Source: Streptomyces sp. SAI-127
GTDB taxonomy: Bacteria; Actinomycetota; Actinomycetes; Streptomycetales; Streptomycetaceae
Reading direction: 5' to 3'
Length of the DNA stretch: 64,000 bases
NCBI RefSeq assembly: GCF_029894425.1
Contig: NZ_JARXYJ010000001.1
Span: 558,001-622,000 of the forward strand
In this document: positions 46,647-63,925 of the stretch, in pieces
Layout: each line of letters opens with the position of its first letter
How positions within the stretch are numbered: position 1 is the first letter of the stretch
Position numbers and translations under genes: made by a program
The notes under the pieces: generated by a model
Told to the model about the DNA's origin: nothing
Database searches by the model: none
What the model saw: only the letters and a program-made list of their open reading frames with translations

Positions 46647-47852
46647 TCAGCCTTCCGCGTGGGCCAGCCACAGGTCGGGGCCGAAGACCTCGTAACGGAT
46701 GTGGCGGGCGGGGATACCGGCCTGCAGCAGCTGGGCCCGCACGGACCGCATGAAGGGCAGTGCGCCGCACAGGTAGACGTCGGCGTCGGCGGGCAGGTCC
46801 AGTCCGTCGAGATCCATCAGACCGGTGCGGGCGCCGGGCTCGGCGGCGGCATCCTGTTCGTACCAGAACTCGGCCCGGGCGCCGGGCAGTTGGCCGACGA
46901 GGCGGCGGGTGTCCGCGCGCAGGGCGTGGTCGGCCGGGGAACGGTCGGCGTGCAGCAGCGTGACCGGGCGGGCGGCTCCGGTCGCCGCGAGGTGTTCGAG
47001 CATGCCGACCATCGGGGTGCAGCCGATGCCGGCCGAGACCAGCAGCAGCGGGCTGTCGGCTTCGTCGAGGACCACGTCGCCGAACGGCGCGGACAGGGTG
47101 AGTTCGTCGCCGGCCCGGACGGTGCGGTGCAGCTGATTGGACACCTCGCCCTCGGGGGCGTCGGCCACGCTCGCGACCCGTTTGACGGTGATACGGCGCA
47201 GCTGGTCGCCAGGGGCGCCGGAGAGGCTGTACTGGCGCAACTGGTGTATGCCGTCGGGCATCTTCACGCGGACGCTGACGTACTGGCCGGCCCTGCCGGA
47301 GGGGAGCGGGGCGTCGTCGGCCGGGCGCAGCAGGAAGGACACCGCGTCGGGGGTCTCCTCCCGCCGCTCCACGACCGTCCACTGCCGCCACGGATGACGG
47401 GGATCGACCTGCGCCTCCTGGTACAGGCGGGCCTCCCGGGCGATGAGCGCGCCGGCCATCAGCCAGTACACCTCGTCCCACGCGCCGGCGACCTCCGGCG
47501 TGACCGCCTCGCCGAGGACGTCGGCAATGGCCCCGAACAGGTACTTGTGGACGATCGTGTACTGGTCCTCGGTGACACCAAGTGCGGCGTGCTTGTGGGC
47601 GATCCGCGACAGCAGCGCGTCCGGGCGGGCGTCGGGGTCGGCGAGCAGTGCCTGTGCGAAGCCTGCGATGGACCCGGCCAGCGCACGGCGCTGTTGTCCG
47701 CTGGCCTGGTTGCCGCGGTTGAACAGCCCGTCCAGCAGCTCTGGCTGTTCGGCGAACATCGTGTCGTAGAACCGGGCCGTGATCTCGTCCAGAGCTCCGC
47801 CGACGGCGGGAAGGGTGGCACGGACGACGGTGGCCGACTCGGGCGAAAGCAT
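46647..47852 (-). CDS. hmp: Flavohaemoprotein (nitric oxide dioxygenase)
   Basis: 401 residues from an ATG with GAGGAGA upstream. The globin domain (about 1-140) has the proximal His88 in RIAHKHAALG and TVVHKYLFGAI-type helix residues (IVHKYLFGAIADVLG). The FAD-binding domain shows LRQYSLSG and the NAD domain LVSAGIGCTPMVGML, ending in the FAD-contact segment YEVFGPD. It oxidises nitric oxide to nitrate using NAD(P)H and O2. Two palindromes of the GGGCCGNNCGGCCC type lie 75-110 bp upstream. Confidence 0.95.
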   Translation of the reverse strand: MLSPESATVVRATLPAVGGALDEITARFYDTMFAEQPELLDGLFNRGNQASGQQRRALAGSIAGFAQALLADPDARPDALLSRIAHKHAALGVTEDQYTIVHKYLFGAIADVLGEAVTPEVAGAWDEVYWLMAGALIAREARLYQEAQVDPRHPWRQWTVVERREETPDAVSFLLRPADDAPLPSGRAGQYVSVRVKMPDGIHQLRQYSLSGAPGDQLRRITVKRVASVADAPEGEVSNQLHRTVRAGDELTLSAPFGDVVLDEADSPLLLVSAGIGCTPMVGMLEHLAATGAARPVTLLHADRSPADHALRADTRRLVGQLPGARAEFWYEQDAAAEPGARTGLMDLDGLDLPADADVYLCGALPFMRSVRAQLLQAGIPARHIRYEVFGPDLWLAHAEG

Positions 47853-47926
47853 GGGTCTCCTCAGCAGTGCGGGTGTGCAGGGGGATGGCGCTCACCATCG
47901 TGGCTCGATCCACGTGCGGGGGCCGA

Positions 47927-47940
47927 GGGCCGAATGGCCT
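47927..47940. promoter_or_regulatory. DevR-like box upstream of hmp (1)
   Basis: GGGCCGAATGGCCT, 12 of 14 positions matching the inferred consensus GGGCCGNNCGGCCC (two mismatches), 75 bp before the hmp start codon. It pairs with the box at 47949. Confidence 0.6.
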
Positions 47941-47948
47941 TCTCTATG

Positions 47949-47962
47949 AGGCCGATCGGCTC
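47949..47962. promoter_or_regulatory. DevR-like box upstream of hmp (2)
   Basis: AGGCCGATCGGCTC, two mismatches to the inferred consensus, 97 bp before the hmp start. The centre-to-centre distance to the first box is 22 bp, which would put two dimers on about the same DNA face. Confidence 0.6.
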
Positions 47963-48173
47963 ACGTGGATGCGGACACCCCCACCGGACCCGTCGGCGGC
48001 AACAGTGCCCCCGGCCACCCCTCGGTCCGAACGGGCCACGCAGTCGCGCCTGGTTTCCGTGCGGGTCTCCAGCGACCGGACGCGCCAAACACACCAAGGA
48101 CAAGCGACAGCGGAGCGAACACTCACAGCTGCGAACGATCGCAAGGCCCGGTCAGACGGAAGCGGTCTTGCGG

Positions 48174-49166
48174 CTACACGATGTCGAGAACGTCACTGAC
48201 CGGGCGGCGGGGCGTGGCCGGACCTCGCGGGCCGTAGCCGAGACGCAGCACCATCTGCACCTGCCCCGTGCCCGATCCCGGGTCGCGGACCAGCAGGCGC
48301 AGTTCGGGGGTCTCCAGCGCGTGGGAGGTGAGGGAGGTGGCCAGGTCGGCCAGGGTTGCCTCCAGGAGCACGCGTTCCAGGGCCTGACCGGCGCGCAGCC
48401 AGTCGGCGGGCCCGTCGCCGGGAGTGCTCAGCAGGGCCAGGTGCGGGGTGTACTCGAAGGTGGTGGTGCCGCGGTCGGCCACCGGTCGGCGCCCGGAGAA
48501 GTCCCGTACCGGAGCCTTGCCGTCCCGCTTGCGCGGCCCGAAGGCGTACTCGGGGACACCGTCGACGGCGCTGTCCGCCTCCGGGCCGAGCCGGGTCCAG
48601 CGGACGAGGTCCTCGCGGGCGCCGGAGTCCATGACATCGCGGCTCTCCGCGTCGCGGACCAGGTCGAGCACCGTCTCGGCATGCCAGGGGCCGGGGAAGA
48701 GCAGGGCGGCCGACTCGCGTGCCGCAGCTTCTTGCAGCGTGGTCCGGATGTCCTCGGGGATGTCCTTCTCCGCGAAAGGATGGCGGCTGGTGTGGCGCTG
48801 CCGGATCACCGCATGCAGCCGGGCCAGCTCGTCGTCCGGCGCGCGCCCGGCCTCCCCGGTCAGATGGACGGCGGCGAGCAGCTGCGGATCCTGCGGCTCG
48901 GGCAGCAGCCGTACCTCCGGGTTGAGGCCCGCATGCGCGGCGGAGACGCGCAGGTTGAAGAGTGCCGCTCCGCAGCCGATGTGCAGCGCCCGGTTGCCCT
49001 GATCGGAGCGCGGCATGGCCCGCTCGAGGTCGGCGTACAGCAGCAGAAGACGGTCAGCGGCCAGGAAGCGGAAACGCCATGGCTGAGCGTTGTGCATGGA
49101 CGGCGCCGCGGTGGCCTCGGCGACCAAAGTGGTCACCGTCTTCTCATCGAGCTGTCGCAATGCCAT
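48174..49166 (-). CDS. Acg-type nitroreductase-like flavoprotein
   Basis: 330 residues from an ATG at 49166 with GAGGAGG 5-6 nt upstream. The fold is a duplicated nitroreductase: VAEATAAPSMHNAQPWRFRF near the N-terminus and RHTSRHPFAEKDIPEDIRT in the middle. It resembles mycobacterial Acg (Rv2032) and relatives, which belong to the DevR dormancy regulon and are thought to bind FMN without ordinary nitroreductase activity. I did not find a convincing DevR-like box upstream, so it may have its own promoter. Confidence 0.85.
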   Translation of the reverse strand: MALRQLDEKTVTTLVAEATAAPSMHNAQPWRFRFLAADRLLLLYADLERAMPRSDQGNRALHIGCGAALFNLRVSAAHAGLNPEVRLLPEPQDPQLLAAVHLTGEAGRAPDDELARLHAVIRQRHTSRHPFAEKDIPEDIRTTLQEAAARESAALLFPGPWHAETVLDLVRDAESRDVMDSGAREDLVRWTRLGPEADSAVDGVPEYAFGPRKRDGKAPVRDFSGRRPVADRGTTTFEYTPHLALLSTPGDGPADWLRAGQALERVLLEATLADLATSLTSHALETPELRLLVRDPGSGTGQVQMVLRLGYGPRGPATPRRPVSDVLDIV

Positions 49167-49241
49167 GGCATCCTCCTCGCACGCGCCCGCCGGGACGTGG
49201 ACCCCGCTGACCGGGTACCCCACTGACGGCTCGGCGGACAC

Positions 49242-49538
49242 GCCACACGGCTGTGGCGGTCAGCCCGCATCCGGCCGGCTGATCCCAGTGTCCGCCTCAT
49301 GGGACCTGCCGGGCGTGCGAAACCGAAACCCCGAATGCCGCCCATGCGTCTGCGCGACGCCCCAGTACGTCGAGTGATCATTGAGTTCCAGGCTCTGCGG
49401 CCGGAATCTTATGGGCGCGCAGGCGCCCGGGGCCGGGGTGGGTGCCGTCGCAGAGCCCATCGCCGGGTTGCCACCGCATCGGGTACGGAAACCTCCCCGA
49501 TTCCGAACGGCAGAGCCATCCACGCTGGGTCCGGCGCC
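49242..49538. other. Intergenic region between nitroreductase and ldh genes
   Basis: About 300 bp (370 bp counted from the chosen nitroreductase start) holding the nitroreductase promoter, which I could not define. Nothing else is supported. Confidence 0.35.
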
Positions 49539-50552
49539 TCAGGCGGCGGGCGACCGGACGAGCGTGTTGTCGCCGGTTCGGCCGGCGAAGTAGTCCGCGA
49601 CATTGGCCACCGTCGTCTCGGCGATCTGGCCGACGGCGTCCCGGGTGAAGTACGCCTGGTGCGAGGTGACCAGGACGTTGTTGAAGGTCATCAGCCGCGC
49701 GAGGCGTTCGTCGGTCATCACTTCCAGGGACTTGTCGAGGAAGAACACTCCGGCCTCCTCCTCGTACACGTCCAGGCCGACGCCGCTGAGCCGCCCCGCG
49801 CGCAGGGTTTCCAGCAGGGCGTCGGTGTCCACGAGGCCGCCGCGGCTGGAGTTGACCAGAAGCGCGTCGTCCTTCATCAGCCCCAGGGCACGCGCGTCGA
49901 GGAGGTGGTGGGTGTCCGGCAACAGTGGCACGTGCAGGCTGACCAGGTCCGCCTCGGCGAACAGCCGCTCCCGCTCGACGTACTGCATGCCCAGGGCCAG
50001 GCAGTCCGGGTTTTCGGCGAGGTCCCAGCCCAGCAGCCGCATCCCGAAGCCGTGGGCGATGCGCGCGAACGCGGCCCCGATCTTGCCGGTGCCCACCACA
50101 CCGGCCGTTCGGCCGTGCAGGTCGCGGCCCATCAGCCCGTCGAGTCGGAAGTCGAACTCCCGGGTGCGGTGCGCGGCGCGAACGATCCGCCGGTCGACGG
50201 CGAGCGCCAGGGCCCAGGCGAACTCGGCGACCGAGTAGGGCGAGTAGGACGACACCCGGGCCACCGTCAGGCCGATTTCCCCGGCCACGGTCAGGTCGAT
50301 GTTGTTGTAGCCGGTGGCCCGCTGGGCGATCATCTTCGTGCCGCCCGTGGCCAGGGCGCGCAGGACCTCGGCGTCGAGGGTGTCGTTGACGCTGGTGAGC
50401 ACGATCTCGTGCCCGGCTGCGGTGGGGGCCGTGTCGCGATTGAGGAAGAGTCCCAGACAGCGCAGTTCATGCCGGCCCGCGAACTCGCGTGTGAATGCGC
50501 CGTGCAGCAGCGGCTCCTCGTCCGCGAGGACGCCGTATGCGATGGCCTCCAC
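49539..50552 (-). CDS. ldhA: D-2-hydroxyacid dehydrogenase (fermentative D-lactate dehydrogenase-like)
   Basis: 337 residues from a GTG at 50552, with AAGGAGAG 6 nt upstream. The NAD-binding motif GTGKIGAAFARIAHGFGMRL (about 153-172), the substrate Arg in NSSRGGLVD, Glu in the YEEEAGVFF region and His in VTSHQAYFT are in the order known for D-lactate dehydrogenases (LdhA). It would reduce pyruvate to D-lactate and re-oxidise NADH when respiration is limited. It lies 19 bp after the DUF1003 gene and should share its DevR-like box. Confidence 0.9.
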   Translation of the reverse strand: MEAIAYGVLADEEPLLHGAFTREFAGRHELRCLGLFLNRDTAPTAAGHEIVLTSVNDTLDAEVLRALATGGTKMIAQRATGYNNIDLTVAGEIGLTVARVSSYSPYSVAEFAWALALAVDRRIVRAAHRTREFDFRLDGLMGRDLHGRTAGVVGTGKIGAAFARIAHGFGMRLLGWDLAENPDCLALGMQYVERERLFAEADLVSLHVPLLPDTHHLLDARALGLMKDDALLVNSSRGGLVDTDALLETLRAGRLSGVGLDVYEEEAGVFFLDKSLEVMTDERLARLMTFNNVLVTSHQAYFTRDAVGQIAETTVANVADYFAGRTGDNTLVRSPAA

Positions 50553-50571
50553 GTGTTCTCTCCTTCTGGAA

Positions 50572-51111
50572 TCAGAGGTCCTGGGGGTCGACCGGCGTCC
50601 CACGCTGCTCGAGGTCCATGCCCGCCTTGCTCTGCGCGATGATCTCCTGCACGTGCTGCTCGATCTGCTGAGGGTCGAGGCCCAGTGCCTTTCCTATATG
50701 AACCGACCACACCTCGGAGCGCAGGTTGGTCTCGAAGTCCAGATCGGCGCGTACGTTCTCGCGTGCCGCCTGCCGGTTCTGGCTGACCATGACGAACGTC
50801 GACAGGAAAATCGCTTCCAAGCTCACGATCATGGTGAGCAGCCCAAAGGGATACGGGTCGAAGATCTCTGCTTTCCCGAGCAGGCCCTCGTTCAGCACGA
50901 TCCAAACCGTGAACCAGAGAGCGTGCAGGTAGACGAATCGCATCGTCCCCGCGAACGAGGTGATCGCGTCGGCGACACGGTCCTGCGAGGTGCGCATCCG
51001 TGCCTGCCGGACACGCTCGTGGGGAACGCGGACGGCAGCGCGCCGAGGACGGCTCCGGCCCGCGGAAGCGGGGCTGCTCTCACCGGCGGAGCCCGGCTTC
51101 ACGCCCTCCAT
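50572..51111 (-). CDS. DUF1003-family membrane protein
   Basis: 179 residues from an ATG at 51111, with AAAGGA 7 nt upstream. Two membrane segments (VYLHALWFTVWIVLNEGLLG and PFGLLTMIVSLEAIFLSTFV) are followed by the family's QNRQAARENVRADLDFETN motif. The Arg/Ser-rich first 50 residues are likely disordered and cytoplasmic. The role of the family is unknown. It leads the operon with ldhA, and a DevR-like box lies 102 bp upstream. Confidence 0.88.
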   Translation of the reverse strand: MEGVKPGSAGESSPASAGRSRPRRAAVRVPHERVRQARMRTSQDRVADAITSFAGTMRFVYLHALWFTVWIVLNEGLLGKAEIFDPYPFGLLTMIVSLEAIFLSTFVMVSQNRQAARENVRADLDFETNLRSEVWSVHIGKALGLDPQQIEQHVQEIIAQSKAGMDLEQRGTPVDPQDL

Positions 51112-51212
51112 CCGTCGTCCTTTCGATCGGTGCCCGGTGGTTTGGTGACCGGGGTCCGCTCCCAGCGTGACAGCAGGGAAGCATGTCATGCGGGCCGCAT
51201 CGGGACGGCACG

Positions 51213-51226
51213 GGGACGTTCGGCCC
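51213..51226. promoter_or_regulatory. DevR-like box upstream of DUF1003-ldhA
   Basis: GGGACGTTCGGCCC, one mismatch to GGGCCGNNCGGCCC, 102 bp before the DUF1003 start codon. Confidence 0.65.
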
Positions 51227-51506
51227 AGCCGGCTCCCGCGAAGAGCGCCGGCTCAGTGGCGCGCACGGGGCGGGCAGACGGGCGGGCAGGTGAATCCGAC
51301 TCCCGAGCGTGGCGTCGGTCTTCTCGTCGCCGCTCCGAGGTGAAGTGGCTGCCGGAGCCGCACGAACGCGGCCTGCCGGCAACCGTCCGGCTGACCGGTC
51401 CGCTCGCCGCGGACGAAGGGCAGCGGCCCTGAGGGGCTGCCGGGACCGGGTCTGCCCGCGGGCGCTGAACCCGGTCGGCGCCCGGTCGGCGGCCGGCGGG
51501 AGCGGG

Positions 51507-52517
51507 TCACGTCTCGAAGACGATGCGTGCCTTGATCTGTCCGTCGAGGACTTCGGCGATGGAGTCGTTGACGGTGTGCAGCGGCCGGGTTTCGTAGATG
51601 ACCTTGGTGCGTCCGGCGGCGTGGAGCTGGAAGACCTCGTCGAGGTCCTGGCGAGTGCCGACGATGGAGCCGATGACGGAGGTGCCGTTCAGAACGGTGT
51701 CGAAGATCGGCAACTGGATGGTTCCGCCGGCGGGCAGCGCGACCATGACCAGTTTGCCGCCGCGCCGCAGTCCGCCGTAGACGGAGGCGAACGCCTGCTC
51801 GTTGACGGCGAGCGCGATGGCGGCGTGGGCACCGCCGTGCTGCTTGAGCACCTTCGCCGGGTCTTCCTTGCGGGCGTCGATGAGGATGTCGGCGCCGAGC
51901 TCGCGGGCGAGGTCGAGCTTGTCGTCGGTGACGTCGATCGCGGCGACGGTGGCGCCGGCGATCTTCGCGTACTGCACGGCCAGGTGGCCGAGCCCGCCGA
52001 TGCCGGAGATCGCCACCAGCTGGGTGGGACGGACACCGGCGACCTTGAGGGCCTTGTACGTGGTCACGCCGGCGCAGGTCAGCGGGGCGGCGTCGCGCGG
52101 GTCGATGCCGTCGGGGACCAGAGCGGCGAAGTCGGCCGGGGCGAGCATCTTCTCGGCGTAGCCGCCGTCCACGCCGTAGCCGGTGTTGATCTGCTGCTCG
52201 CACAGGGTCTCCCAGCCGGACAGGCAGTGCTCGCACCGCCCGCAGGCCCAGCCCAGCCAGGGCACGGCCACCCGCTGTCCGATCTCCAGGTGGGTCACGC
52301 CCTCGCCGAGGGCCTCGACGAGGCCGACGCCCTCATGGCCGGGCACGAAGGGCGGGGTGGGCTTGACAGGCCAGTCGCCGTGCGCGGCGTGGATGTCGGT
52401 GTGGCACAGCCCGGACGCCTCCACGCGGATGCGGACCTGGCCGGGGCCGGGCTCCGGATCCGGCCGTTCCTCGATCACCAGCGGCTGGCCGAAGGATCGG
52501 ACGACTGCTGCCTTCAT
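51507..52517 (-). CDS. adhP: Zinc-dependent alcohol dehydrogenase (AdhP-type)
   Basis: 336 residues from the ATG at 52517; GAGGAG 6 nt upstream favours it over the adjacent GTG. Catalytic zinc ligands are Cys38 (GLCHTD), His61 (PGHEGVG) and a Cys in PLTCAGVT; the structural zinc has Cys92, Cys95, Cys98 and Cys106 (CGRCEHC and C later). The Rossmann motif is ISGIGGLGHLAVQYAK. It would reduce acetaldehyde to ethanol or the reverse, serving redox balance. A perfect DevR-like box lies 106 bp upstream. Confidence 0.93.
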   Translation of the reverse strand: MKAAVVRSFGQPLVIEERPDPEPGPGQVRIRVEASGLCHTDIHAAHGDWPVKPTPPFVPGHEGVGLVEALGEGVTHLEIGQRVAVPWLGWACGRCEHCLSGWETLCEQQINTGYGVDGGYAEKMLAPADFAALVPDGIDPRDAAPLTCAGVTTYKALKVAGVRPTQLVAISGIGGLGHLAVQYAKIAGATVAAIDVTDDKLDLARELGADILIDARKEDPAKVLKQHGGAHAAIALAVNEQAFASVYGGLRRGGKLVMVALPAGGTIQLPIFDTVLNGTSVIGSIVGTRQDLDEVFQLHAAGRTKVIYETRPLHTVNDSIAEVLDGQIKARIVFET

Positions 52518-52622
52518 CACATGCTCCTCAAGGGCTGACTGTGCGGTGCAGTGCGGTGCGGTGCGAATTCAGCGTCGGCTCCGTCCCGGCGCGGCGGCAG
52601 GTCCTGGACGTCCTCGGAGAGG

Positions 52623-52636
52623 GGGCCGATCGGCCC
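52623..52636. promoter_or_regulatory. DevR-like box upstream of adhP
   Basis: GGGCCGATCGGCCC, an exact match to the inferred consensus and part of a 16-bp perfect palindrome (52622-52637), 106 bp before the adhP start. Confidence 0.75.
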
Positions 52637-52970
52637 CGAGCAACGCGGAGACGGACCCCTTGAGCCGAGCGGGGCGCGCCGACGCGGGATGCCTCCTGCT
52701 GATCCGACGCCATCTGGGACGGCCGCGCGGGCCGGGAACACGGGAGAGCGCCCGGCGTCGCCGACCACCACACCACGCCCGCCTCTCGCGGCGGTCGGTG
52801 CGACGTCGGAGGCGTGCCCCCAGGCCGACCACGCGCATGACCGAGACCTGGAGATGTTGCCCGCTCCCATGGATTCGAGCCTGCCGAGCAGATCCACTGC
52901 CCGGCCGCTGCCGGTCCGCGTAGGCGATCCGCTCGGGCCCCCGGGGGAAGGCGGGGCGCAGAAGTCGGTA

Positions 52971-52984
52971 GGGCCGAACGGCCC
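52971..52984. promoter_or_regulatory. DevR-like box upstream of the response regulator (1)
   Basis: GGGCCGAACGGCCC, an exact match to the consensus. It directly abuts a second, weaker box, and the pair lies 109-136 bp before the response-regulator start, suggesting autoregulation. Confidence 0.75.
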
Positions 52985-52998
52985 TGGCCCTTTGGCCC
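52985..52998. promoter_or_regulatory. DevR-like box upstream of the response regulator (2)
   Basis: TGGCCCTTTGGCCC, with both GGCC cores kept in the right register. It touches the first box end to end, 14 bp centre to centre. Confidence 0.5.
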
Positions 52999-53106
52999 CG
53001 GATCGCGCAAGATCTGCAATAGGCAAGGACTGGTTACACCCCGTGGGCGACAGCCCGGTGCAGAACCCGGTGCAGGATTCAGACAGCGCAGAACAAGGAG
53101 CATCCA

Positions 53107-53805
53107 ATGGCGGACGGCGCGCAGCCCGGCCCGGACAACCCGATCCGGGTCTTCCTGCTGGACGACCACGAGGTGGTACGGCGCGGGGTGCACGACCTGC
53201 TGAACGACGAGCCGGACATCACCGTCGTCGGCGAGGCCGCCACTGTCGAGCAGGCCCTGATCCGCGTGCCCGCGCTGCGCCCGCAGGTGGCCGTGCTCGA
53301 CGTCCGCCTGCCCGACGGCGACGGCGTGACCGTGTGCCGCGAACTGCGCTCGCAGATGCCGGAGTTGGCCTGCCTGATGCTGACCTCGTTCGACGACGAG
53401 GAAGCCCTGCTGGACTCGATCATGGCGGGGGCGTCCGGGTACGTCCTGAAGCAGATCAAGGGCTCGGACCTTGTCTCGGCCGTCCGCACGGTCGCCGCCG
53501 GCCAGTCCCTGCTCGACCCCAGCGCCACCGCCAGGCTGATGGCCCGGCTGCGCCAGGGCCAGGAGCCGGAACCCGAGCCCGACGCCCTCCCCGGTCTGAC
53601 GGACCGGGAGCGGGAGATCCTGGCCCTGATCGGCGAGGGACTGACCAACCGCCAGATCGGCCAGCGGCTCTACCTCGCGGAGAAGACGGTGAAGAACCAC
53701 ATCTCCCGGCTGCTGGCCAAGCTCGGTGTGGAGCGGCGCATCCAGGCCGCGGTCATCGCCACCCAGGCCCAGGCCCAGGACCGGGCCAAGCCACAGGGGC
53801 GCTGA
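53107..53805 (+). CDS. NarL/FixJ-family response regulator, DevR/OsdR-like
   Basis: 232 residues. The receiver domain (about 13-130) has the acidic pair Asp19-Asp20, phospho-acceptor Asp65 in [13 protein letters not shown], Thr93 and Lys115 in [10 protein letters not shown]. After a Glu/Pro-rich linker, the LuxR-type helix-turn-helix (about 160-225) shows [20 protein letters not shown] and [16 protein letters not shown]. The sequence is close in layout to DevR/DosR and OsdR. No sensor kinase gene is adjacent; the next gene is GAPDH. Two DevR-like boxes lie upstream, and I infer that this protein reads the repeated boxes through the whole 46-64 kb region. Confidence 0.92.
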
Positions 53806-54960
<1,155 letters not shown>

Positions 54961-55104
54961 CCGACGAGTGCTGATCACGGGGGCGTCGTCGCTGCTCCGG
55001 GCAGCGGGTGCGGGCCCTCACACGGCGGGGCGGCAGTGCCCATGAGAAGCGGCCGGATGGCCGCCCCGTCGCACCATCCGTCGCTCTGACGGAACGAAGC
55101 CGAC

Positions 55105-55442
55105 TTCGACCTCGGTGTCCTGCGCGGGAGTTGGCGCGTCGCCTACTACTCGTACGGCGCCCTGGGCACCGACCGCTACCCGCGCCCTTCAGCCTGGGCG
55201 AGGAACCCGACTACCCGGCCCGGCTGGACATCGACCACCCCACACACCTCTCTCGCGGCCTGGTGCTGGTGAAGTGGTGGCTGCCGGCCACCAGCTGGTG
55301 GCCCACCGCGGCTCTGGTCGGGGCCGCAAGTGGGCTTGTTCTCAAGGCGATCTGGTTCGACGCATGGCTCAGTGTCGGCGTGCTGTTGGATGTCGGCGTC
55401 CTCGTGGCCGTGCCCTGTACTTGGCCGGCATCCCGGTACTGA
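55105..55442 (+). pseudogene. Frameshifted fragment of a DUF4389-like membrane protein
   Basis: One frame reads [20 protein letters not shown] and GTDRYPRP; one base out of register it continues as [38 protein letters not shown] and a membrane segment up to 55442. The two halves make one continuous protein if a single base is restored. The sequence resembles the DUF4389 domain found near stress proteins in actinomycetes, with both ends missing. Confidence 0.55.
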
Positions 55443-55454
55443 GCACGTGCAGCA

Positions 55455-55470
55455 GCCCGGGGTTCCGGGC
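55455..55470. terminator. Hairpin at the 3' end of pflA
   Basis: GCCCGG GGTT CCGGGC, a 6-bp stem with 4-nt loop, 12 bp past the convergent pflA stop. No U-run. Probably ends the pfl operon transcript. Confidence 0.45.
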
Positions 55471-55481
55471 CGCTCAGCGCG

Positions 55482-56231
55482 TCACACCGCCCGCAGGCAG
55501 TGCTCACGGAACTGCTCGCGCACCCGCTCCGTCAGGTCCGGATCCGGCGTGGGTGTGTCGCGCAGCGGGAAGGGGATGCCGAGCGCGTCGTACTTGTGGG
55601 CGCCTAGCTTGTGGAACGGCAGGACGTCCACCCGGTCGACGTTGCCCAGCCCGGCGAGGAACCCGGCGAGGCCGTCGACGGCCGCCGGGTCGTCGGTCCA
55701 GCCGGGCACGAGGACGTAGCGAATCCACACCGGGACGCCGAGCCGGTCCAGGCGGGTGGCGAAGTCGAGGGTCGGGGAAAGGTCGCCGCCGGTCAGCCTC
55801 CGGTAGGTCCGGCCGTCGAAGGACTTGATGTCCAGCAGGACCAGGTCGGTGTCGGCGAGCAGCTCGTCGGTGGCGCGGGCGCCGAGGAAACCGGAGGTGT
55901 CCAGGGCGGTGTGCAGACCGAGTTCCTTGCAGCGGCGGAAGACCGAGGCCGTGAACTCGGGCTGCAGCAGGGCCTCGCCGCCGGTGAGCGTCACTCCCCC
56001 CCCGCCGGCGACGGTGATGAAGGGCCGGTACTTCTCGATCTCGGCCATCACCTCGTCGACCGTGGTCTGTTTCCCGTCGCGCATGTGCCAGGTGTCGGGG
56101 TTGGCGCAGTACAGGCAGCGCAGGGGGCAGCCGCTGAGGAACAGCACGAACCGGGTCCCGGGACCGTCCACTCCCGTGGACAGGTCCCAGGAGTGGATCC
56201 GGCCCGTCACCGGTGCGACCGAGGTGCTCAC
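55482..56231 (-). CDS. pflA: Pyruvate formate-lyase activating enzyme (radical SAM)
   Basis: 249 residues from a GTG that overlaps the pflB stop (GTGA). The radical-SAM [4Fe-4S] motif is CPLRCLYC (Cys-x3-Cys-x2-Cys, residues about 35-42), followed by the SAM-binding [14 protein letters not shown]. The short N-terminal [20 protein letters not shown] is the PflA signature, without the extra ferredoxin domain of other activases. It places the glycyl radical on PflB under anaerobic conditions, and its coupling to pflB supports that. Confidence 0.93.
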
Positions 56232-58489
56232 AGCGATCCGTGGAAGGTACGGCTGATCACGTCGAGCTGCTGCTCGCGGGTCAGGCGGACGAAGTTGACG
56301 GCGTACCCCGAGACCCGGATCGTCAACTCCGGGTACTTCTCCGGGTGTTCCATGGCGTCCTCCAGGGTCGCCCGGTCCAGGACGTTGACGTTCATGTGGA
56401 AGCCGCCCGAGGCCGTATAGGCGTCGAGGATGCCCACCAGGTGGCCCGGCCGCTCGTCGGGGTGGTGCCCCAGCCCCTCCGGGGTGATCGTCGTGGTCAG
56501 CGAGATGCCGTCCCGGGCCTCCTCGTAGGGCAGCTTCGCCACCGACAGCGCGGAGGCGGCCACTCCGTGCCGGTCACGGCCGTTCATCGGGTTGGCGCCG
56601 GGCGCGAAGGGCTGTCCGGCACGCCGGCCGTCGGGGGTGTTGCCCGTGTGCTTGCCGTACACCACGTTGGAGGTGATGGTCAGCACCGACTGGGTGTGCT
56701 CGGCGTTACGGTAGGTGGGGTGGCAACGGACCTTCGCCATGAAGGACTTCACGAGGTCGACGGCGATGGAGTCGACACGGTCGTCGTTGTTGCCGTACGC
56801 CGGGAAGTCGCCCTCGATCTCGTAGTCGACGGCCAGGCCCGTGTCGTCCCGGATCACCTTCACCCGGCCGTACTTGACGGCGGAGAGGCTGTCGGCGGCC
56901 ACCGAGAGTCCGGCGATACCGCAGGCCATGTAGCGATACACCGGGTGGTTGTGCAGCGCCATCTCGATGCGTTCGTAGGCGTACTTGTCGTGCATGTAGT
57001 GGATGACGTTGAGGGTGTTGACGTAGGTGGCCGCCAGCCAGTCCAGCATGCGGTCGTACGCGGCCGACAGCTCCCCGTACTCCAGGTACTCACCGGTCAG
57101 CGCGGGCGCCTCGGGCGCGATCTGCTCGCCGGTCATCTCGTCGCGGCCGCCGTTGATCGCGTACAGCAGCGCCTTGGCGAGGTTGACGCGGGCCCCGAAG
57201 AACTGCATCTGCCGGCCCACCGTCATCGCCGAGACGCAGCAGGCGATCGCGGTGTCGTCGCCGGTGCGCGGGCGCATCAGGTCGTCGGACTCGTACTGCA
57301 CGGCGCTGGTGTCGATGGACACCCGGGCGCAGAACTCCTTGAAGCCGTAGGGCAGTTGGGGTGACCACAGCACGGTCAGGTTGGGCTCGGGGGCCGGGCC
57401 GAGGTTGTACAGCGTCTGCAGGAAGCGGAAGGACGTGCGGGTGACGAGTGTGCGCCCGTCACCTCCCATGCCGCCGATGGACTCGGTCACCCAGGTCGGG
57501 TCGCCGGAGAACAGCGCGTCGTACTCCGGGGTGCGCAGGAACCGTACGATCCGCAGCTTGATCACGAAGTCGTCGATCAGCTCCTGGGCGCGGGTCTCGT
57601 CGAGGGTCCCCTCGTCCAGGTCCCGCTGCACGTAGACGTCCAGGAACGTGGAGGTGCGGCCAAGCGACATCGCGGCGCCGTTCTGCTCCTTCACCGCCGC
57701 CAGGAAGCCGAGGTAGAGCCACTGCACGGCCTCGTGGGCGGTGACGGCCGGGCGGGAGACGTCGCAGCCGTACGAGGCCGCCATCGCCGTCAGTTCGCCC
57801 AGCGCCCGGATCTGCTCGGCCAGTTCCTCACGGTCGCGGATGACGTCCGGGCTGGAGAGCCGCGCGTCCAGCAGGGCGCGCTCGGCCCGCTTGGACTCGA
57901 TCAGCCGGTCCGTGCCGTACAGCGCGACCCGACGGTAGTCGCCGATGATCCGGCCGCGGCCGTAGGCGTCCGGCAGGCCGGTGATGATCCCGGCCTTGCG
58001 GGCCGCACGCATCTCAGGCGTGTAGGCGTCGAAGACACCGTCGTTGTGGGTCTTGCGGTAGGTGCCGAAGACACGGGTGACGAAGGGGTCGGCCCGGTAG
58101 CCGTACGCCTTCAGACTGTTCTCGACCATCCGCAGACCGCCGTTGGGCATGATGGCCCGCCGCAGCGGGGCATCGGTCTGCAGGCCGACGATCAGCTCCC
58201 GGTCGCGGTCGATGTAGCCCGGCCGGTGCGAGGTGATGGTGGACGGGTGGCCCGGGTCGACGTCGAGGATTCCCTTGCGCCGCTCCTCGGGGAACAGACG
58301 AGCGACCTTGTGCCAGACGGCGAGGGTGCGTTCGGTCGGACCGACCAGGAACGTCGAGTCGCCCTCGTACGGCGTGTAGTTGGCCTGGATGAAGTCGCGT
58401 ACGTCGATGCGGTCGCGCCAGCGCAAGCCGGCGAAGCCGCGCCATGCCTCGGTTGCCGCCCGGGCACCAGTTGTCGCCGTTGCCGTCAT
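56228..58489 (-). CDS. pflB: Formate C-acetyltransferase (pyruvate formate-lyase)
   Basis: 753 residues from an ATG with GAGGGAGAG 7 nt upstream; the length is close to E. coli PflB. The adjacent catalytic cysteines Cys417-Cys418 are in [14 protein letters not shown] and the glycyl-radical site is Gly728 in RVSGYAVNF near the C-terminus. All elements of an active enzyme are present. It splits pyruvate with CoA into acetyl-CoA and formate without making NADH, and is destroyed by O2 once activated. No formate transporter or dehydrogenase is nearby. A DevR-like box lies 121 bp upstream. Confidence 0.95.
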
Positions 58490-58609
58490 CGCCGGTCTCT
58501 CCCTCGCTCTGCACGTGGAACTTCTTCGCTTTTGATGCTCGTCGCTCGCGATGCCTACGAGGAGGGCCTGTCGGAGTTCCTGGGGCTCGCCATCGGTCCC
58601 TCGTCTGCT

Positions 58610-58623
58610 GGGCCGTTGGGCCC
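58610..58623. promoter_or_regulatory. DevR-like box upstream of pflB
   Basis: GGGCCGTTGGGCCC, one mismatch to the consensus, 121 bp before the pflB start. Confidence 0.65.
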
Positions 58624-58720
58624 GGTCGGGCCCCCGGCATCGCCCGGCTGCCTGAAAACGAACGACCGGGGCACCTCCGCCCGTCGGCGGAGGTGCCCCG
58701 CTCCTGTGAGCGCGCGGCCC

Positions 58721-59341
58721 TCAGAGCAGCCAGCGGTTACGGCTGACCAACGGCAGCCGCGCCCACGCCTTGCCCAGTCCCCAGGTGGCGCCTGCGCCCG
58801 CGACCGCCAGCGCGATCAGGACGATGGCGTAGATGAGGTGGTAGTCGGCGAACGGGTTGGTCGACATGCTCACCGAGCCGTCGGACAGGTGCTTGGCCGG
58901 CGGCCACTCGGCGATCCACATCAGCGCCATCATGCCGGTGCCGGCGACCGCGGCGAGCCGCAGCGCGATGCCGGAGACGAGGGCGAGGCCAATGCCGAGC
59001 AGGCCGAGCATGAACAGCCAGTCCGCCCAGGCGGCCCCGGCCCAGTCGTGGAAGGTGGACTCCATCGGGCCGGCGGCGACCCCGCCGAGGAAGCCCTTGG
59101 TGGGCGAGCCGCCGTCGATCCAGCTTTTGCCGGAACCGGTGGCGTAACCGAGGCCGAAGGTCTTGTCCAGGAACGCCCACAGGAAGACGAACCCGGTCAG
59201 GATCCGGAGCCCGGCGAACATGTACGCCCGGGTCGCCGTCGCGGTGGCGGTCGTCTCGCCGGCGGCGGGAGCCGTCCCGGCCCTGCGCAGGGACGGGAAG
59301 CGGAATCCCGTATGACGCTGGGGGTGGTCGTGCACTGTCAT
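58721..59341 (-). CDS. DoxX-family membrane protein
   Basis: 206 residues from the second ATG at 59341, with AAAGGGA 8 nt upstream. After a polar tail of about 45 residues come four membrane segments, including AGLRILTGFVFLWAFLDKTF and LFMLGLLGIGLALVSGIAL, matching the DoxX/quinol-oxidase-subunit-like family. Mycobacterial DoxX acts with superoxide dismutase and a thiol protein in oxidative defence; the role here is unknown. The best DevR-like box in the window (18-bp perfect palindrome) lies 114 bp upstream. Confidence 0.85.
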   Translation of the reverse strand: MTVHDHPQRHTGFRFPSLRRAGTAPAAGETTATATATRAYMFAGLRILTGFVFLWAFLDKTFGLGYATGSGKSWIDGGSPTKGFLGGVAAGPMESTFHDWAGAAWADWLFMLGLLGIGLALVSGIALRLAAVAGTGMMALMWIAEWPPAKHLSDGSVSMSTNPFADYHLIYAIVLIALAVAGAGATWGLGKAWARLPLVSRNRWLL

Positions 59342-59454
59342 GATGCTCATCCCTTTCGAGGGGTATGACGCGCAGGATGTCGGGCGACTCTCGTCGCACC
59401 TTCAATGTCCCGCGTCGTCGACGCCCGTCGGAGGGGCTGCAGGGCCCGGACCGC

Positions 59455-59468
59455 GGGCCGAACGGCCC
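59455..59468. promoter_or_regulatory. DevR-like box upstream of doxX
   Basis: GGGCCGAACGGCCC within an 18-bp near-perfect palindrome (59453-59470, only the central dinucleotide is asymmetric), 114 bp before the DoxX start. Confidence 0.75.
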
Positions 59469-59630
59469 GCTGTCCGGGCCCCATTGGCATCGGTCAGCCG
59501 TCCCAGGACAGTCGGCGACCTCAGGCAGGTCGGTGCCGTGGACGCTTGCGGGTCGGGGTTCGGTCTGAGGTGCACGCGGGGCCGTACCTCCCCACACTCA
59601 CCCGCCCCGGCGGATCCACTGTGCCTGTCT

Positions 59631-60461
59631 TCAGGTCGTCGGCACCAGCACCACAGGGCAGTGGGAGTGGTGCAGAAGGACATGCCCGACCGGGCCGAGT
59701 GGTGGACCGGGCCGGCCCGCGCGCCGGTGTGTGCCGATGACCACGACGTCCGCCTCGCGGGTGCCCGCCAGCAGGGCGTGGGCCGGGCCGGTGCGGACCG
59801 TGCAGCTGTCGACCTCGACCCCGGGGTACTCCTCCCGCAGCCGGGCGATACCCAAGCGCGGCACGGCTTCTTCCGCACGGTCGCTTTGGGCCTGGCGTTG
59901 CCGGCCAGGACTCGTCGCGGCCACCAGCGAGGCCAGTTCCGGCGAGGTGTGCCGGTGTGTCGCGCAGTGCACGACACGCAGCCGGGCCCCACGCCGGGAC
60001 GCCTCCTGGAAGGCATAGGCAGCAGCGGCCTCATCGGCGTCGCTCTCCAGGCCGAGCAGCACCGCGCGCCCCTCGTCGTGAGGGTGATCCCCGCGGGCGA
60101 CCAGCAGCGGACCGTGCACGTGCCCGGTCAGGCGCCGGCTCACGGATCCGGCCAGCAGGCCGGAGACACCGCCGAACCCCCGGGTGCCCACGACGGTGAG
60201 GGCCGCACTCTCGCTTTCCCGTGCCAGCGCCCGCACGGCGCCGCCCTCCACGGCCCTGGTCTCCACCAGCAGACCGGCATGGCGCTCGTGGACCCGCGAG
60301 GCGGCCGATGCCAGAACCGGCCCCGCCTCGTCCCGGTCGGCCACGGCGTACACGATGCGCAACGCGGCGCCGCGGCGCACCGCCTCCTCGGCAGCCCGGT
60401 CCAAGGCCAGTACGGCGACCAATGAGCCGTCCACTCCAACAGCCACATGATGCTCAGTCAT
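59631..60461 (-). CDS. Universal stress protein, tandem USP domains (1)
   Basis: 276 residues from an ATG at 60461, with AAGGGA 8 nt upstream. Two UspA domains follow each other. The first has VAVGVDGSLVAVLALDRAAE and the ATP-binding VVGTRGFGGVSGLLAGSVSR (Gly-x2-Gly-x9-Gly-Ser). The second ends in VVIGTHRRAGRPGPPLGPVG with HCPVVLVP. Tandem USPs are typical members of DevR regulons. A DevR-like box lies 102 bp upstream. Confidence 0.92.
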   Translation of the reverse strand: MTEHHVAVGVDGSLVAVLALDRAAEEAVRRGAALRIVYAVADRDEAGPVLASAASRVHERHAGLLVETRAVEGGAVRALARESESAALTVVGTRGFGGVSGLLAGSVSRRLTGHVHGPLLVARGDHPHDEGRAVLLGLESDADEAAAAYAFQEASRRGARLRVVHCATHRHTSPELASLVAATSPGRQRQAQSDRAEEAVPRLGIARLREEYPGVEVDSCTVRTGPAHALLAGTREADVVVIGTHRRAGRPGPPLGPVGHVLLHHSHCPVVLVPTT

Positions 60462-60562
60462 TGTCCTGTTCCCTTCTGCTCCACGGAGATGCTCGTCGTC
60501 CGCGGACGCCGCGGGCAGAGGCCGCCGGAACCCGGCGGCGTGCCGTATGGCCCCATCTCGTC

Positions 60563-60576
60563 GGGCCGTACGGCTC
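60563..60576. promoter_or_regulatory. DevR-like box upstream of USP 1
   Basis: GGGCCGTACGGCTC, one mismatch to the consensus, 102 bp before the USP start and in the gap after the PNPOx-like gene. Confidence 0.65.
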
Positions 60577-60614
60577 CGGCCGACGAGAAGCAACAGGAAA
60601 AGGGAGGAGGACCT

Positions 60615-61055
60615 TCAGGCGGGGAGATCTACCCCGTACAGGGTTCGTCCGGCGACGAGCTCCCGTCCGGTGACCAGTTCGGCCTCGATGCGGACGAAGA
60701 CCTCCTGCGGCGCGGGTACCCAGGAGGCCGGGCCGGTGCGGGCCAGGCGTTCATGCTCGGCCGGGTCGGTCACCACTGTGGCCGTGCCCGTGACGACAAC
60801 GCTCCAGCCGGAGTGGCGGGCCACATCGACGTCGTCGGCCTCGAAGGCGACCACCGTGTCGTCGATCGCGCGGACCAGTTCCGAGGCTGCGGAGGTACGC
60901 AGCAGGACCGTGCCGTCGCCGTCCAGGGTGAAGTTGATCGGCAGCACGGCGGGCAGGGCGCGGCGCGTGTAGACAATGCGGCCGATGGACGCCTTGGCCA
61001 TCAGCCGCAGGCACTCCTGCCGCCCGAGTTCGCGGAAACCGTCATTGGGGTCCAT
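60615..61055 (-). CDS. Pyridoxamine 5'-phosphate oxidase-like (split-barrel flavin) protein
   Basis: 146 residues. The split beta-barrel is recognised from ECLRLMAKASIGRIVYTRRA, PAVLPINFTLDGDGTVLLRT and HSGWSVVVTGTATVVTDPAE. Such proteins bind FMN, F420 or haem and several are DevR-regulated in mycobacteria. It lacks the residues of true PdxH. A candidate box, GGGCCATGGGTCCC, is 76 bp upstream. Confidence 0.85.
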   Translation of the reverse strand: MDPNDGFRELGRQECLRLMAKASIGRIVYTRRALPAVLPINFTLDGDGTVLLRTSAASELVRAIDDTVVAFEADDVDVARHSGWSVVVTGTATVVTDPAEHERLARTGPASWVPAPQEVFVRIEAELVTGRELVAGRTLYGVDLPA

Positions 61056-61130
61056 CAGCCAGCCCGTCTCTCACCTGGTACAGCGGCATTGCGTTCCTCC
61101 ACCCTGCGCCGGACGAGGCCCGAGGATGAG

Positions 61131-61144
61131 GGGCCATGGGTCCC
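61131..61144. promoter_or_regulatory. DevR-like box upstream of the PNPOx-like gene
   Basis: GGGCCATGGGTCCC keeps both outer half-sites with one change in GGCCC (plus the centre), 76 bp before the start codon at 61055. Confidence 0.5.
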
Positions 61145-61270
61145 TGCCGAGACGGAGAACGACCCGCGCAGCACCACGGTCGATGGGCCGCACGGCCGGC
61201 CTGTCCGCGGTGTTCGGGGAATGCTCGGCCGCGTCGCTACGCCTGACGGGCCTCGCGGGACCGGGCGGGT

Positions 61271-61284
61271 GGGCCGATCGGCCC
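61271..61284. promoter_or_regulatory. DevR-like box between the PNPOx-like gene and the STAS pseudogene
   Basis: GGGCCGATCGGCCC at the centre of a perfect 20-bp palindrome (61268-61287). It is 216 bp from the PNPOx-like start, farther than other boxes, and 51 bp before the broken STAS gene on the plus strand, which it may once have served. Confidence 0.7.
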
Positions 61285-61334
61285 ACCCGCGGCGCGCCTT
61301 GCCTGTCTCCTCGGACCAGGTCCGGTTCGCGTCG

Positions 61335-61500
61335 GTGAAACCACCGTCGTGGAGCTGGGTGGGCGAGATCGACATCTTCACTGCGCCGTCCCTCAGGGCC
61401 CGGCTGGAGGACCTCGCCGCCGGCCGGCACCCGATCCGGTCCTGGACTTGCGTACCACGGCCTTCATCGACCGCACCTGCTTGGCGTCGCCAGTCCGCTG
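61335..61500 (+). pseudogene. Frameshifted STAS-domain (anti-sigma antagonist) fragment
   Basis: The pieces GETTVVEL, then VGEIDIFTAPSLRARLEDLA with AGRH, then DPVLDLRTTAFIDRTCLA lie in three successive frames. Together they form the first half of a STAS domain, with the conserved Asp-x-Ser/Thr switch area (FIDRTCLA in place of FIDSTGL). At least two single-base changes break the frame and the second half is not recognisable. Confidence 0.6.
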
Positions 61501-61829
61501 GACAGACGCCGACGAGACCCCGTCGAGCCGCCGACTCCCACGGAAGCGCCCGTCGGAGCCGGCGCCCTGGCCACCGGGGCCGCGCACGCCTTCGGCGCCG
61601 GAGCCCTCGCGCGGTAGGACTCGACCGGCGGCGTATCGGGCAGTGGGGCAGGGCGTGGGACCTGGCCAGCCCGCAGCGGGGACACAGGACCGGTTGATCC
61701 ACGCTGAGCCACGGAAACTCAGACAGGCCGTACGGGCACACGAGTGGCCCGCCTCCGTAGTAACCCCGATCGCTGCGAAGGCGGGGGGAAGAACCGTTCC
61801 GGCGCCCCACCCCTTCGCGTCGGCGGCTC

Positions 61830-62753
61830 TCAGCCGACGGCCAGGTCAGAGCGCACGAGGGTCCCCGACCGCCCGTGGACGATCTCGTACGCGGCGTCGA
61901 GGGCGCCGATGGCGGCCAGCCCGCCCGTGCGTTCGACGAACCGGGCGGCGGCCTCCGTCTTGGGGCCCATCGAGTCCTCGGGGAAGGGGCCGCGCCGCAG
62001 ATCGTCGGGGGTGACGTCGAGGACGGACTGCTGGTGCCGGGTGCCGTAGTCGGCGTAGACGTTCGGTACGTCGGTGAGGATGAGCAGGAAGTCGGCCTTG
62101 AGTTCCTCGGCGAGCAGGGCGGCCGTGAGGTCCTTGTCGACGACCGCCTCGACCCCGGTCAGCGCGCCGGTGTCGTGGTCGGCGGTGACGGGAACGCCTC
62201 CGCCGCCGGCGCAGATGACCAGCGCGCCGCAGGTGAGCAGGTCATGGATGGTCTCGGTCTCCACGATCCCCTCAGGCGTGGGTGAGGCGACGACCTGACG
62301 CCACCCGGTGGCGTCCTTGGCGATGTGCCAGCCCCGCCTTCGCGCGAGGGAGTGGGCGACGTCCCGGGGATACACGGGGCCGACGCGCTTCGTGGGCCGC
62401 GCGAACGCCGGATCGTCGCCCCGTACCAGGGTGTGGGTGACGAGTGCGGCGATCTTGCGTCCGGGAAGCGTGTCGTGCAGGGCCCGGACCAGAAGCGAGC
62501 CGATCAGGCCCTCGGTCTGGGCGCCGAGCAGGTCGAGCGGGAAGGGAGCGGTCAGGACCGGGTCGGCCGCGCTCTCCATGGCGAGCAGGCCGATCTGCGG
62601 CTCGTTGCCATGGGTGATGACGATCTCGTGTTCGAGGGCGAGGGCGGCGACGGCAGTGGCCACCCGGTCGACGTTCGCCTGCTGTATGGCCGCGTCGGGG
62701 CGATCACCCCGGCGCAGCAGGGCGTTGCCGCCGAGGGCGATGACGATGCGCAC
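61830..62753 (-). CDS. arcC: Carbamate kinase
   Basis: 307 residues from a GTG at 62753. Signatures of the amino-acid kinase fold are present: IVIALGGNALLRRGD at the N-terminus, ITHGNEPQIGLLAME, VICAGGGGVPV and AVVDKDLTAALLAEELKADF. It makes ATP from carbamoyl phosphate and ADP in the arginine deiminase pathway, a fermentative energy source. The gene starts 3 bp after the stop of an ornithine carbamoyltransferase remnant, as in an arcBC operon. No arginine deiminase gene is in the window. Confidence 0.93.
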   Translation of the reverse strand: MRIVIALGGNALLRRGDRPDAAIQQANVDRVATAVAALALEHEIVITHGNEPQIGLLAMESAADPVLTAPFPLDLLGAQTEGLIGSLLVRALHDTLPGRKIAALVTHTLVRGDDPAFARPTKRVGPVYPRDVAHSLARRRGWHIAKDATGWRQVVASPTPEGIVETETIHDLLTCGALVICAGGGGVPVTADHDTGALTGVEAVVDKDLTAALLAEELKADFLLILTDVPNVYADYGTRHQQSVLDVTPDDLRRGPFPEDSMGPKTEAAARFVERTGGLAAIGALDAAYEIVHGRSGTLVRSDLAVG

Positions 62754-62756
62754 GGT

Positions 62757-62860: not shown

Positions 62861-62908
62861 GGCGTGCGGTGGTCGGGCGGCGCCGATGGGGGCATCGTGG
62901 GGACCGGT

Positions 62909-63817: not shown

Positions 63818-63925
63818 GCTGCCTGCCTCCTCCGTTTGAGCCTGTGTGCTCTTCTGGGTCGAGCGTTGTCCAGGAACGGCCTTGTGCGGCGCTTCTCCGG
63901 TTCAGTGCCGTACCAGGCTCCGGAC

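Follow-up and report, generated by a model that had tools for sequence, protein, structure and literature searches.

The described systems closest to the one reported here are OsdR-OsdK (SCO0204-SCO0203) of Streptomyces coelicolor and Streptomyces lividans and DevR/DosR of Mycobacterium tuberculosis. The present analysis concerns a series of palindromic boxes, the genes behind them and a response regulator gene (RR-A) in the genome of Streptomyces sp. SAI-127 (10.72 Mb, three contigs), located in a stretch of 64,000 nucleotides with 70% GC (C1:558001-622000), the whole of which is called the window. The OsdR consensus was published as AGGGCCGATCGGCCCT, with electrophoretic mobility shift assays (EMSA) on the osdR and uspA promoters; the uspA site was also tested by mutation (PMC5069765). 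In S. lividans, an increase in OsdR goes along with increases in pyruvate formate-lyase (PFL), pyruvate phosphate dikinase (PPDK), alcohol dehydrogenase (ADH), universal stress proteins (USPs), a pyridoxamine 5'-phosphate oxidase-like protein (PNPOx), a nitroreductase and Gap3 (PMC6302529). OsdK of S. coelicolor phosphorylates two related regulators, SCO0204 and SCO3818 (PMC3881020, PMC9739842). At DevR promoters the proximal box overlaps the -35 region and adjacent boxes bind cooperatively (PMC3029386).

The locus of SAI-127 shares with OsdR-OsdK the same 16-bp palindrome, a regulator of the same class with a box upstream of its gene, and overlapping kinds of genes for USP, ADH, PNPOx, PFL and glyceraldehyde-3-phosphate dehydrogenase (PMC5069765, PMC6302529). 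It differs in that the window regulator has no adjoining osdK and is followed by gap, in that boxes and genes occupy three loci, which together encode two regulators and two kinases, and in its full-length pflA, where the S. lividans table has a fragment of that gene, given as a putative pseudogene (PMC6302529). With DevR/DosR it has in common the nearest solved structure of RR-A, a GAF-GAF kinase with an aligned heme-ligand His and, as far as the pooled promoters suggest, the placement of a box over -35 with adjacent boxes that is known from DevR (PMC3029386). Two regulators are present instead of the one of DevR/DosR, and the operator core in Streptomyces is GGGCCGNNCGGCCC. The gene set is presumably partly different from, and more fermentative than, the DevR regulon. 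The orphan regulator SCO3818 of S. coelicolor offers a precedent for one OsdK-type kinase with two OsdR-like regulators (PMC3881020, PMC9739842); SAI-127 shows no third OsdR-like match at E<=1e-70. On the comparisons given below, the palindromes of the window are considered, with a probability of about 0.9, to be OsdR-type operators read by OsdR-type regulators; this figure does not include the wiring of the kinases.

Putative operator motif in the window

A position weight matrix was constructed from 25 OsdR sites published for S. coelicolor (Table 1, PMC5069765), made symmetric and used in every matrix scan. Since these sites are all from S. coelicolor, the test motif owes nothing to the SAI-127 genome. 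The scans covered the window and about 1.33 Mb of the genome. Boxes are given as 16 bp and start 1 bp before several of the 14-bp coordinates of a preliminary description of the window (47926 versus 47927).

The motif of the window was found to equal the published OsdR consensus (PMC5069765), and boxes matching it precede usp, adh, PNPOx and other hypoxia genes. The best-scoring box, AGGGCCGAACGGCCCT (52970..52985, 22.0 bits), differs from the consensus by a single base and lies upstream of RR-A as a putative autoregulatory box. Ten sites of at least 10 bits were detected in the window, all within 47,500-64,000 (the last 16.5 kb) and nine of them intergenic, in agreement with the earlier statement that the sites are mostly intergenic; positions 1-46,599 contained no site of at least 10 bits and two coding sites of at least 8 bits.

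Every one of the 12 palindromes listed in the preliminary description is present as a string, and nine of them reach 9 bits. The respective scores are 15.0 (47927), 7.0 (47949), 15.3 (51213), 18.8 (52623), 22.0 (52971), 2.1 (52985), 11.4 (53824), 11.4 (58610), 15.3 (59455), 9.1 (60563), 3.9 (61131) and 15.5 bits (61271). The sites at 52985 and 61131 were dropped as OsdR boxes according to the matrix score, and 47949 is weak alone. Three sites were absent from that list, namely 59578 (12.1 bits), 58618 (9.5 bits, overlapping 58609) and 50101-50116 (10.1 bits), the last of which lies within the D-lactate dehydrogenase-like (D-LDH-like) gene and is probably due to chance.

The distance from box centre to start codon is 82 bp for hmp, 108 bp for the DUF1003 gene (ATG 51111), 112 bp for adhP, 130 bp for RR-A, 102 bp for gap, 128 bp for pflB, 112 bp for the DoxX-like gene, 108 bp for the USP gene (ATG 60461) and 223 bp for the PNPOx gene (ATG 61055), where the values for DUF1003, USP and PNPOx refer to the longer starts and become 222, 148 and 276 bp, respectively, with the shorter starts of the gene finder. 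The range of 75-135 bp proposed earlier holds for eight of the nine promoters with the longer starts and for six with the shorter ones, the PNPOx gene being outside it either way.

Clustering and intergenic position of the boxes

Boxes and genes of this kind are found in three islands. Island A comprises the window part and its continuation beyond the window end, island B (C1:9,485,000-9,522,000, stretches L035 and L036) lies on the other chromosome arm, and island C (C2:15,281-35,135, stretches L056 and L057) is carried by contig C2 of 383,814 bp. Genes were called with a simple codon-usage finder, which is crude (at least one USP gene of island B was missed and shorter starts were given for three window genes). 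The islands amounted to 16.4 kb of intergenic and 53.6 kb of coding sequence, and 55 other 20-kb stretches (1.10 Mb; 213 kb intergenic and 887 kb coding) were used as background.

String counts alone would fit the explanation that the palindromes arise by chance in DNA of 70% GC or are stems of intrinsic terminators. The loose string with up to three mismatches occurs 291 times in the window with 293 expected, which is the chance level; the whole-genome search with up to two mismatches (7317 matches versus 7906 in the control) was uninformative; and the strict form GGGMCGNNCGKCCC, with 48 sites genome-wide versus 57 for the reversed control, is not over-represented overall. It is thus clustering and position that depart from chance. 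Fifteen of the 48 strict sites fall inside the three islands (70 kb in total), where 0.3 would be expected, and all 15 are intergenic, versus 7/33 elsewhere (Fisher P 1.6e-7); as the island limits were set after the sites had been seen, P values for the clustering are optimistic, and the intergenic/coding contrast is less affected. By matrix score, 23 intergenic and no coding sites of at least 12 bits were counted in the islands versus 7 and 11 in the background, and 29 and 3 versus 18 and 44 at a threshold of 10 bits. The density of sites of at least 12 bits was about 43-fold the background intergenic density in the three islands and about 41-fold in island A alone. A loop of 2 nt would, moreover, make a poor RNA stem, and the boxes keep a preferred spacing to a -10-like element and recur before the orthologous regulator gene in other species (see below). 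An origin by chance or as terminators is accordingly regarded as very improbable. The preliminary description had held that its proposal would be refuted if the motif were as common in genes as upstream of them, and this was not found when the islands, the 1.10-Mb background and the 48 strict sites were examined.

Two further strong boxes, C1:8358953 (18.7 bits) and C2:376013 (19.5 bits), were placed by the finder in the last 250 bp of genes and could be intergenic.

Regulators, kinases and conservation in relatives

RR-A (53107..53805, plus strand) is a response regulator of OsdR/DevR type with 232 aa, consisting of a receiver and a LuxR/GerE helix-turn-helix domain (Pfam Response_reg and GerE). 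Its best solved relative is DevR of M. tuberculosis (PDB 3c3w, E 1.7e-79). As read by eye from the DevR alignment, D65, K115, K193, K196 and N197 are kept, i.e. the phospho-acceptor Asp, the conserved Lys and the Lys/Lys/Asn of the recognition helix. In DevR numbering, the DNA-contact residues are Lys179, Lys182 and Asn183. The reading as a DevR/OsdR-like regulon, as put forward in the preliminary description, is supported by the identity of the motif, by this structure match and these residues, and by the boxes before the regulator genes of relatives.

The loci of relatives were examined as the best 80 of 497 confirmed, 72 of the 80 being named Streptomyces, and were labelled A or B according to their best hit to RR-A or to the second regulator, RR-B. 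Upstream of the regulator, a box of at least 10 bits is present at 69 of 79 loci (53/62 A-labelled and 16/17 B-labelled; one locus was dropped, its upstream sequence lacking), versus 0 of 80 control stretches inside the gene. With these boxes and the 22.0-bit box upstream of RR-A, the regulator is predicted to be part of its own regulon, as first suggested. In a midpoint-rooted tree of 85 rows, RR-A falls in a group of 61 (100/98) and RR-B in a group of 17 (100/97); the identity labels are not strictly monophyletic, with 7 of 85 rows outside the core groups, and the bootstrap was not fully settled. When the promoter boxes of A-type and B-type regulators were compared, no difference separating two specificities was seen.

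In some relatives the gene order is pflB-pflA-regulator-kinase (as at two loci) or pflB-pflA-regulator-gap-kinase (as at one locus), and the order SCO0206 (PFL), SCO0204 (OsdR), SCO0203 (OsdK) is the same (PMC6302529). From this gene order RR-A is probably orthologous to SCO0204, the kinase gene next to it having been lost. No OsdK-like kinase was found beside RR-A, and genome-wide matches were obtained only at C1:9513271 and C2:33411. Both of these kinases have the domain order GAF-GAF-HisKA_3-HATPase and the sequence HPPM at residue 142, whose His aligns with the DevS heme ligand (His149); the HPPM context is present in 44 of the 47 kinases compared. They belong to a 22-tip group (0.992, FastTree, 47 rows), composed mostly of kinases adjoining A-type regulators, their place within the group being weakly supported. 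The C2 kinase is 85% identical to that of island B. A GAF kinase of lower similarity (C1:8083443-8084576; two matching pieces, 42% and 31%) lies beside a 41% regulator, the pair spanning C1:8083443-8085198.

The genome search yielded two OsdR-type regulators, RR-A and RR-B, the next best being 43% identical (150 of 185 candidates scored). RR-B (C1:9,485,536) is 75% identical to RR-A over the matched part and 71% over the whole alignment, and has the same recognition helix. By sequence it is as good a candidate binder, so binding of the window boxes by RR-A may be only part of the truth. It was therefore considered whether RR-B mainly occupies the window boxes, with RR-A as a diverged or silent copy. 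Besides the shared helix, this would fit RR-A having no adjacent OsdK-type kinase, while 38 of 63 A-type loci of relatives (and 1 of 17 B-type loci) have one within 2.6 kb of the regulator; but RR-A has its full length, with Asp65, Lys115 and the recognition-helix residues all retained, carries the best box of the window and sits in the supported group of A-type rows, and occupation mainly by RR-B is judged unlikely.

Island B encodes RR-B, pflB, pflA, gap, ADH, USPs, phosphoketolase, PPDK, PNPOx, HSP20 and the GAF-GAF histidine kinase, with boxes of up to 20.7 bits. Island C encodes a USP-ADH-USP cluster, PNPOx and the second OsdK-like kinase, with four boxes of 15.7-20.2 bits at the cluster, PNPOx and the kinase. 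Proteins of islands A and B with near-full-length matches are 47-87% identical, which points to old divergence or separate acquisition and not to fresh duplication. No match at E 1e-20 was found for hmp, the D-LDH-like gene, DUF1003, carbamate kinase or flavodoxin in four 20-kb stretches of islands B and C. All three islands also encode a Crp-like protein of 153-154 aa with a cNMP-binding domain, relatives of which occur near the regulator in many of the best 80 of 497 loci, and such a protein or another regulator might be supposed to read the boxes. Pfam shows the cNMP domain only and no helix-turn-helix in these proteins, however, and in EMSA it is OsdR that binds this box (PMC5069765), so that this possibility deserves very little weight.

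Contig C2 may be plasmid-like. Its stretches gave only partial matches to Streptomyces plasmids (best 28% and 43% of the query). In plasmid records at E<=1e-60, regulators of OsdR type were found in 34 and kinases in 37, including Rhodococcus and Streptomyces clavuligerus, with identities mostly under 80% for the regulators and under 60% for the kinases; some of the records are chromosome-sized.

Across 81 Streptomyces genomes (SAI-127 included), strict A types (at least 80% to RR-A) were present in 22, strict B types (at least 87% to RR-B) in 13 and both in four (G000, G002, G006 and G077, with SAI-127 among them), the thresholds having been placed at gaps in the identity listings. PFL matches at E<=1e-70 were obtained in 32 and OsdK-like kinases at E<=1e-120 in 63 of the 81. 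A third type of OsdR-like regulator, about 66% identical to RR-A, is present in many of these genomes, often mid-contig in complete chromosomes, and may correspond to SCO3818.

Promoter architecture

For the promoter analysis, 208 promoters with a box of at least 12 bits and downstream genes on one strand only were pooled (211 before near-copies were removed; 19 from SAI-127); they are not phylogenetically independent. An A..T pair as at -10 positions 2 and 6 was found at +31/+35 from the box centre in 49 and at +32/+36 in 39 of the 208, the mean being 4.8 per offset, and a second -10-like peak was found at +52 to +54 (21, 17 and 25 promoters, respectively). In total, 87 promoters were of the near type, 56 of the far type only and 65 of neither. 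A weaker partner box (at least 4 bits) lies 19-24 bp nearer the gene in 38% of the far-type promoters, versus 1% in the control. Around 335 strong boxes, partner boxes of at least 6 bits prefer 20-23 bp, with 74 at 19-24 bp versus 1.7 for each distance from 30 to 119 bp (where both members of a pair are strong, the pair enters twice). With these spacings, the centre of the proximal box would lie about 42 bp upstream of the transcription start. The pooled promoters, mostly of relatives, suggest that OsdR boxes cover the -35 region and in many cases have a partner at 20-23 bp, as described for DevR.

Genes and boxes of island A

The gene hmp (46647..47852, minus strand) encodes a flavohaemoglobin with globin and FAD/NAD reductase domains (Pfam; NCBIfam NF009805 below its cut-off) and is preceded by the box AGGGCCGAATGGCCTT (47926..47941). 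The weak site GAGGCCGATCGGCTCA (47948..47963) lies 22 bp distal to it, and was listed as a partner box because this is the spacing favoured in relatives. The box GGGGACGTTCGGCCCA (51212..51227) precedes the DUF1003 gene (50572..51111, minus strand; PF06210), which is followed by the D-2-hydroxyacid (D-lactate-like) dehydrogenase gene (49539..50552, minus strand; Pfam, the best NCBIfam models being D-lactate dehydrogenases, all below their cut-offs). The box GGGGCCGATCGGCCCC (52622..52637) precedes adhP for a zinc alcohol dehydrogenase (51507..52517, minus strand; Pfam and NCBIfam NF006940 AdhP, 350.6 bits with a cut-off of 344), and TGGACCGAACGTCCCC (53823..53838) precedes gap for a type I glyceraldehyde-3-phosphate dehydrogenase (53932..54960, plus strand; TIGR01534 above its cut-off). 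The box TGGGCCGTTGGGCCCG (58609..58624) lies upstream of pflB (56228..58489, minus strand), which encodes a full-length PFL with the glycyl-radical domain (Pfam; TIGR01255, 1151 bits with a cut-off of 994), and pflA (55482..56231, minus strand) encodes the full-length radical SAM activating enzyme (Pfam; TIGR02493 above its cut-off).

The boxes CGGGCCGAACGGCCCG (59454..59469) and GGGGCCGTACCTCCCC (59578..59593, OsdR-like and 236 bp upstream) precede the gene at 58721..59350 (minus strand), whose product, labelled DoxX in the preliminary description, has a 73% paralogue in island B and matched no family of Pfam or NCBIfam at E 1e-3 (the scan used 58721-59341). In island C (L056 14994-15224), a doxX-like fragment with 37% coverage looks decayed. 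The OsdR-like box CGGGCCGTACGGCTCC (60562..60577), with a second weak site at 60539 (8.2 bits), precedes a USP gene (59631..60461, minus strand; two Usp stretches), and TGGGCCGATCGGCCCA (61270..61285) precedes the PNPOx gene (60615..61055, minus strand; PF12900). No box of at least 9 bits was found by the matrix scan between the carbamate kinase-like gene (61830..62753, minus strand) and the next gene, nor before the nitroreductase-like neighbour gene. A further USP gene (62909..63817, minus strand) is the last one listed in the window part. Past the window end, island A continues with genes for the Crp-like protein, flavodoxin, two USPs and SulP and with boxes of 17.2, 13.0 and 9.7 bits. Its SulP is full length; a short sulP-like fragment (23% coverage) was seen in island B (L035:9091-9333).

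Outside the islands, a 20.1-bit box was found at C1:1615818. It is flanked on one side by a LysR-type gene and on the other, which it precedes, by a gene for a putative cytochrome b of fumarate reductase/succinate dehydrogenase (Pfam Sdh_cyt with 22.4 bits, the cut-off being 25.8); the gene after the latter is FAD_binding_2. Among the 30 best matches of 58 genomes with the cytochrome b gene (SAI-127 included), 10 have such a box of at least 10 bits, namely 8/19 with an A/B-type regulator versus 2/11 without (Fisher P 0.25; a partial B-type match is present in one of the 11), and the in-gene control gave 1/30. In S. lividans, an operon suggested as fumarate reductase (SCO0922-0924) is co-expressed with OsdR (PMC6302529). 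The box at C1:1615818 as an OsdR site is a lead only.

Discussion

Much of the gene set of the window matches the OsdR-linked expression set of S. lividans (PMC6302529), as the preliminary description had anticipated for regulons of the OsdR/DevR kind. Several points weigh against reading the boxes as OsdR operators. To the genome-wide counts of the strict form and the three island sites of at least 10 bits that are coding is added that at 10 of the 79 loci of relatives the 320 bp before the regulator contain no box reaching 10 bits, and that hmp, the D-LDH-like gene and DUF1003 are not among the OsdR co-expressed genes in the available part of PMC6302529. Single window promoters mostly carry no convincing -10 element: under a lenient rule (two of three positions), -10-like hexamers at the near distance were found for hmp, DUF1003, RR-A and gap, and none for pflB. 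Finally, the recognition residues of RR-A and RR-B are identical, and sequence cannot tell which of the two occupies the window boxes.

In the proposed mechanism, low oxygen (or nitric oxide) would lead a heme-GAF sensor kinase of OsdK/DevS type to phosphorylate the regulator, and the phosphorylated OsdR-type dimer would bind the palindrome over -35, in many cases together with a second box at a distance of 20-23 bp, and activate pfl, adh, gap, the D-LDH-like gene, hmp, usp and its own gene. The system would be split over three loci, with a regulator lacking a kinase in island A, a regulator and a kinase in island B and a second kinase in island C. Binding, the hypoxic signal, activation, the driving of RR-A by the kinases of islands B and C, and the sharing of operators with RR-B are what we infer. 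Since OsdK serves two regulators in S. coelicolor (PMC3881020, PMC9739842), sharing of a kinase between RR-A and RR-B is plausible. A distributed circuit is put forward tentatively, at somewhat less than even odds: the two OsdR paralogues on opposite arms would use a single operator code, and heme sensors encoded at other loci, including one on the plasmid-like 384-kb contig, would drive RR-A. Phosphoketolase, as encoded in island B, makes acetyl phosphate. Acetyl phosphate was used to phosphorylate OsdR in vitro (PMC5069765), and a metabolic input to OsdR by this route is a matter of speculation.

The motif, the type of regulator and many of the genes are already published, and the arrangement split over three loci is unusual. 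Among the papers listed in searches on OsdR in Streptomyces and its paralogues, on PFL with USP in Streptomyces and on DosR with linear plasmids, none describes in its title or abstract start a genome having two OsdR regulators and split kinases, a weak indication that the arrangement is new. The analysis recovers the published OsdR regulon from raw sequence in another Streptomyces, and predicts full-length pflBA, gap, the D-LDH-like gene and the flavohaemoglobin gene as likely direct OsdR targets. It provides a candidate promoter rule for finding OsdR targets, namely a box about 42 bp upstream of the transcription start with an optional partner 20-23 bp away. It further indicates that a genome can carry the OsdR system in duplicate and in separate pieces, with regulator and sensor no longer adjacent, and the SAI-127 genome allows two paralogous dormancy regulators with one operator type to be compared directly. 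If the distributed circuit is true, an accessory replicon would supply oxygen sensing to a chromosomal fermentation island.

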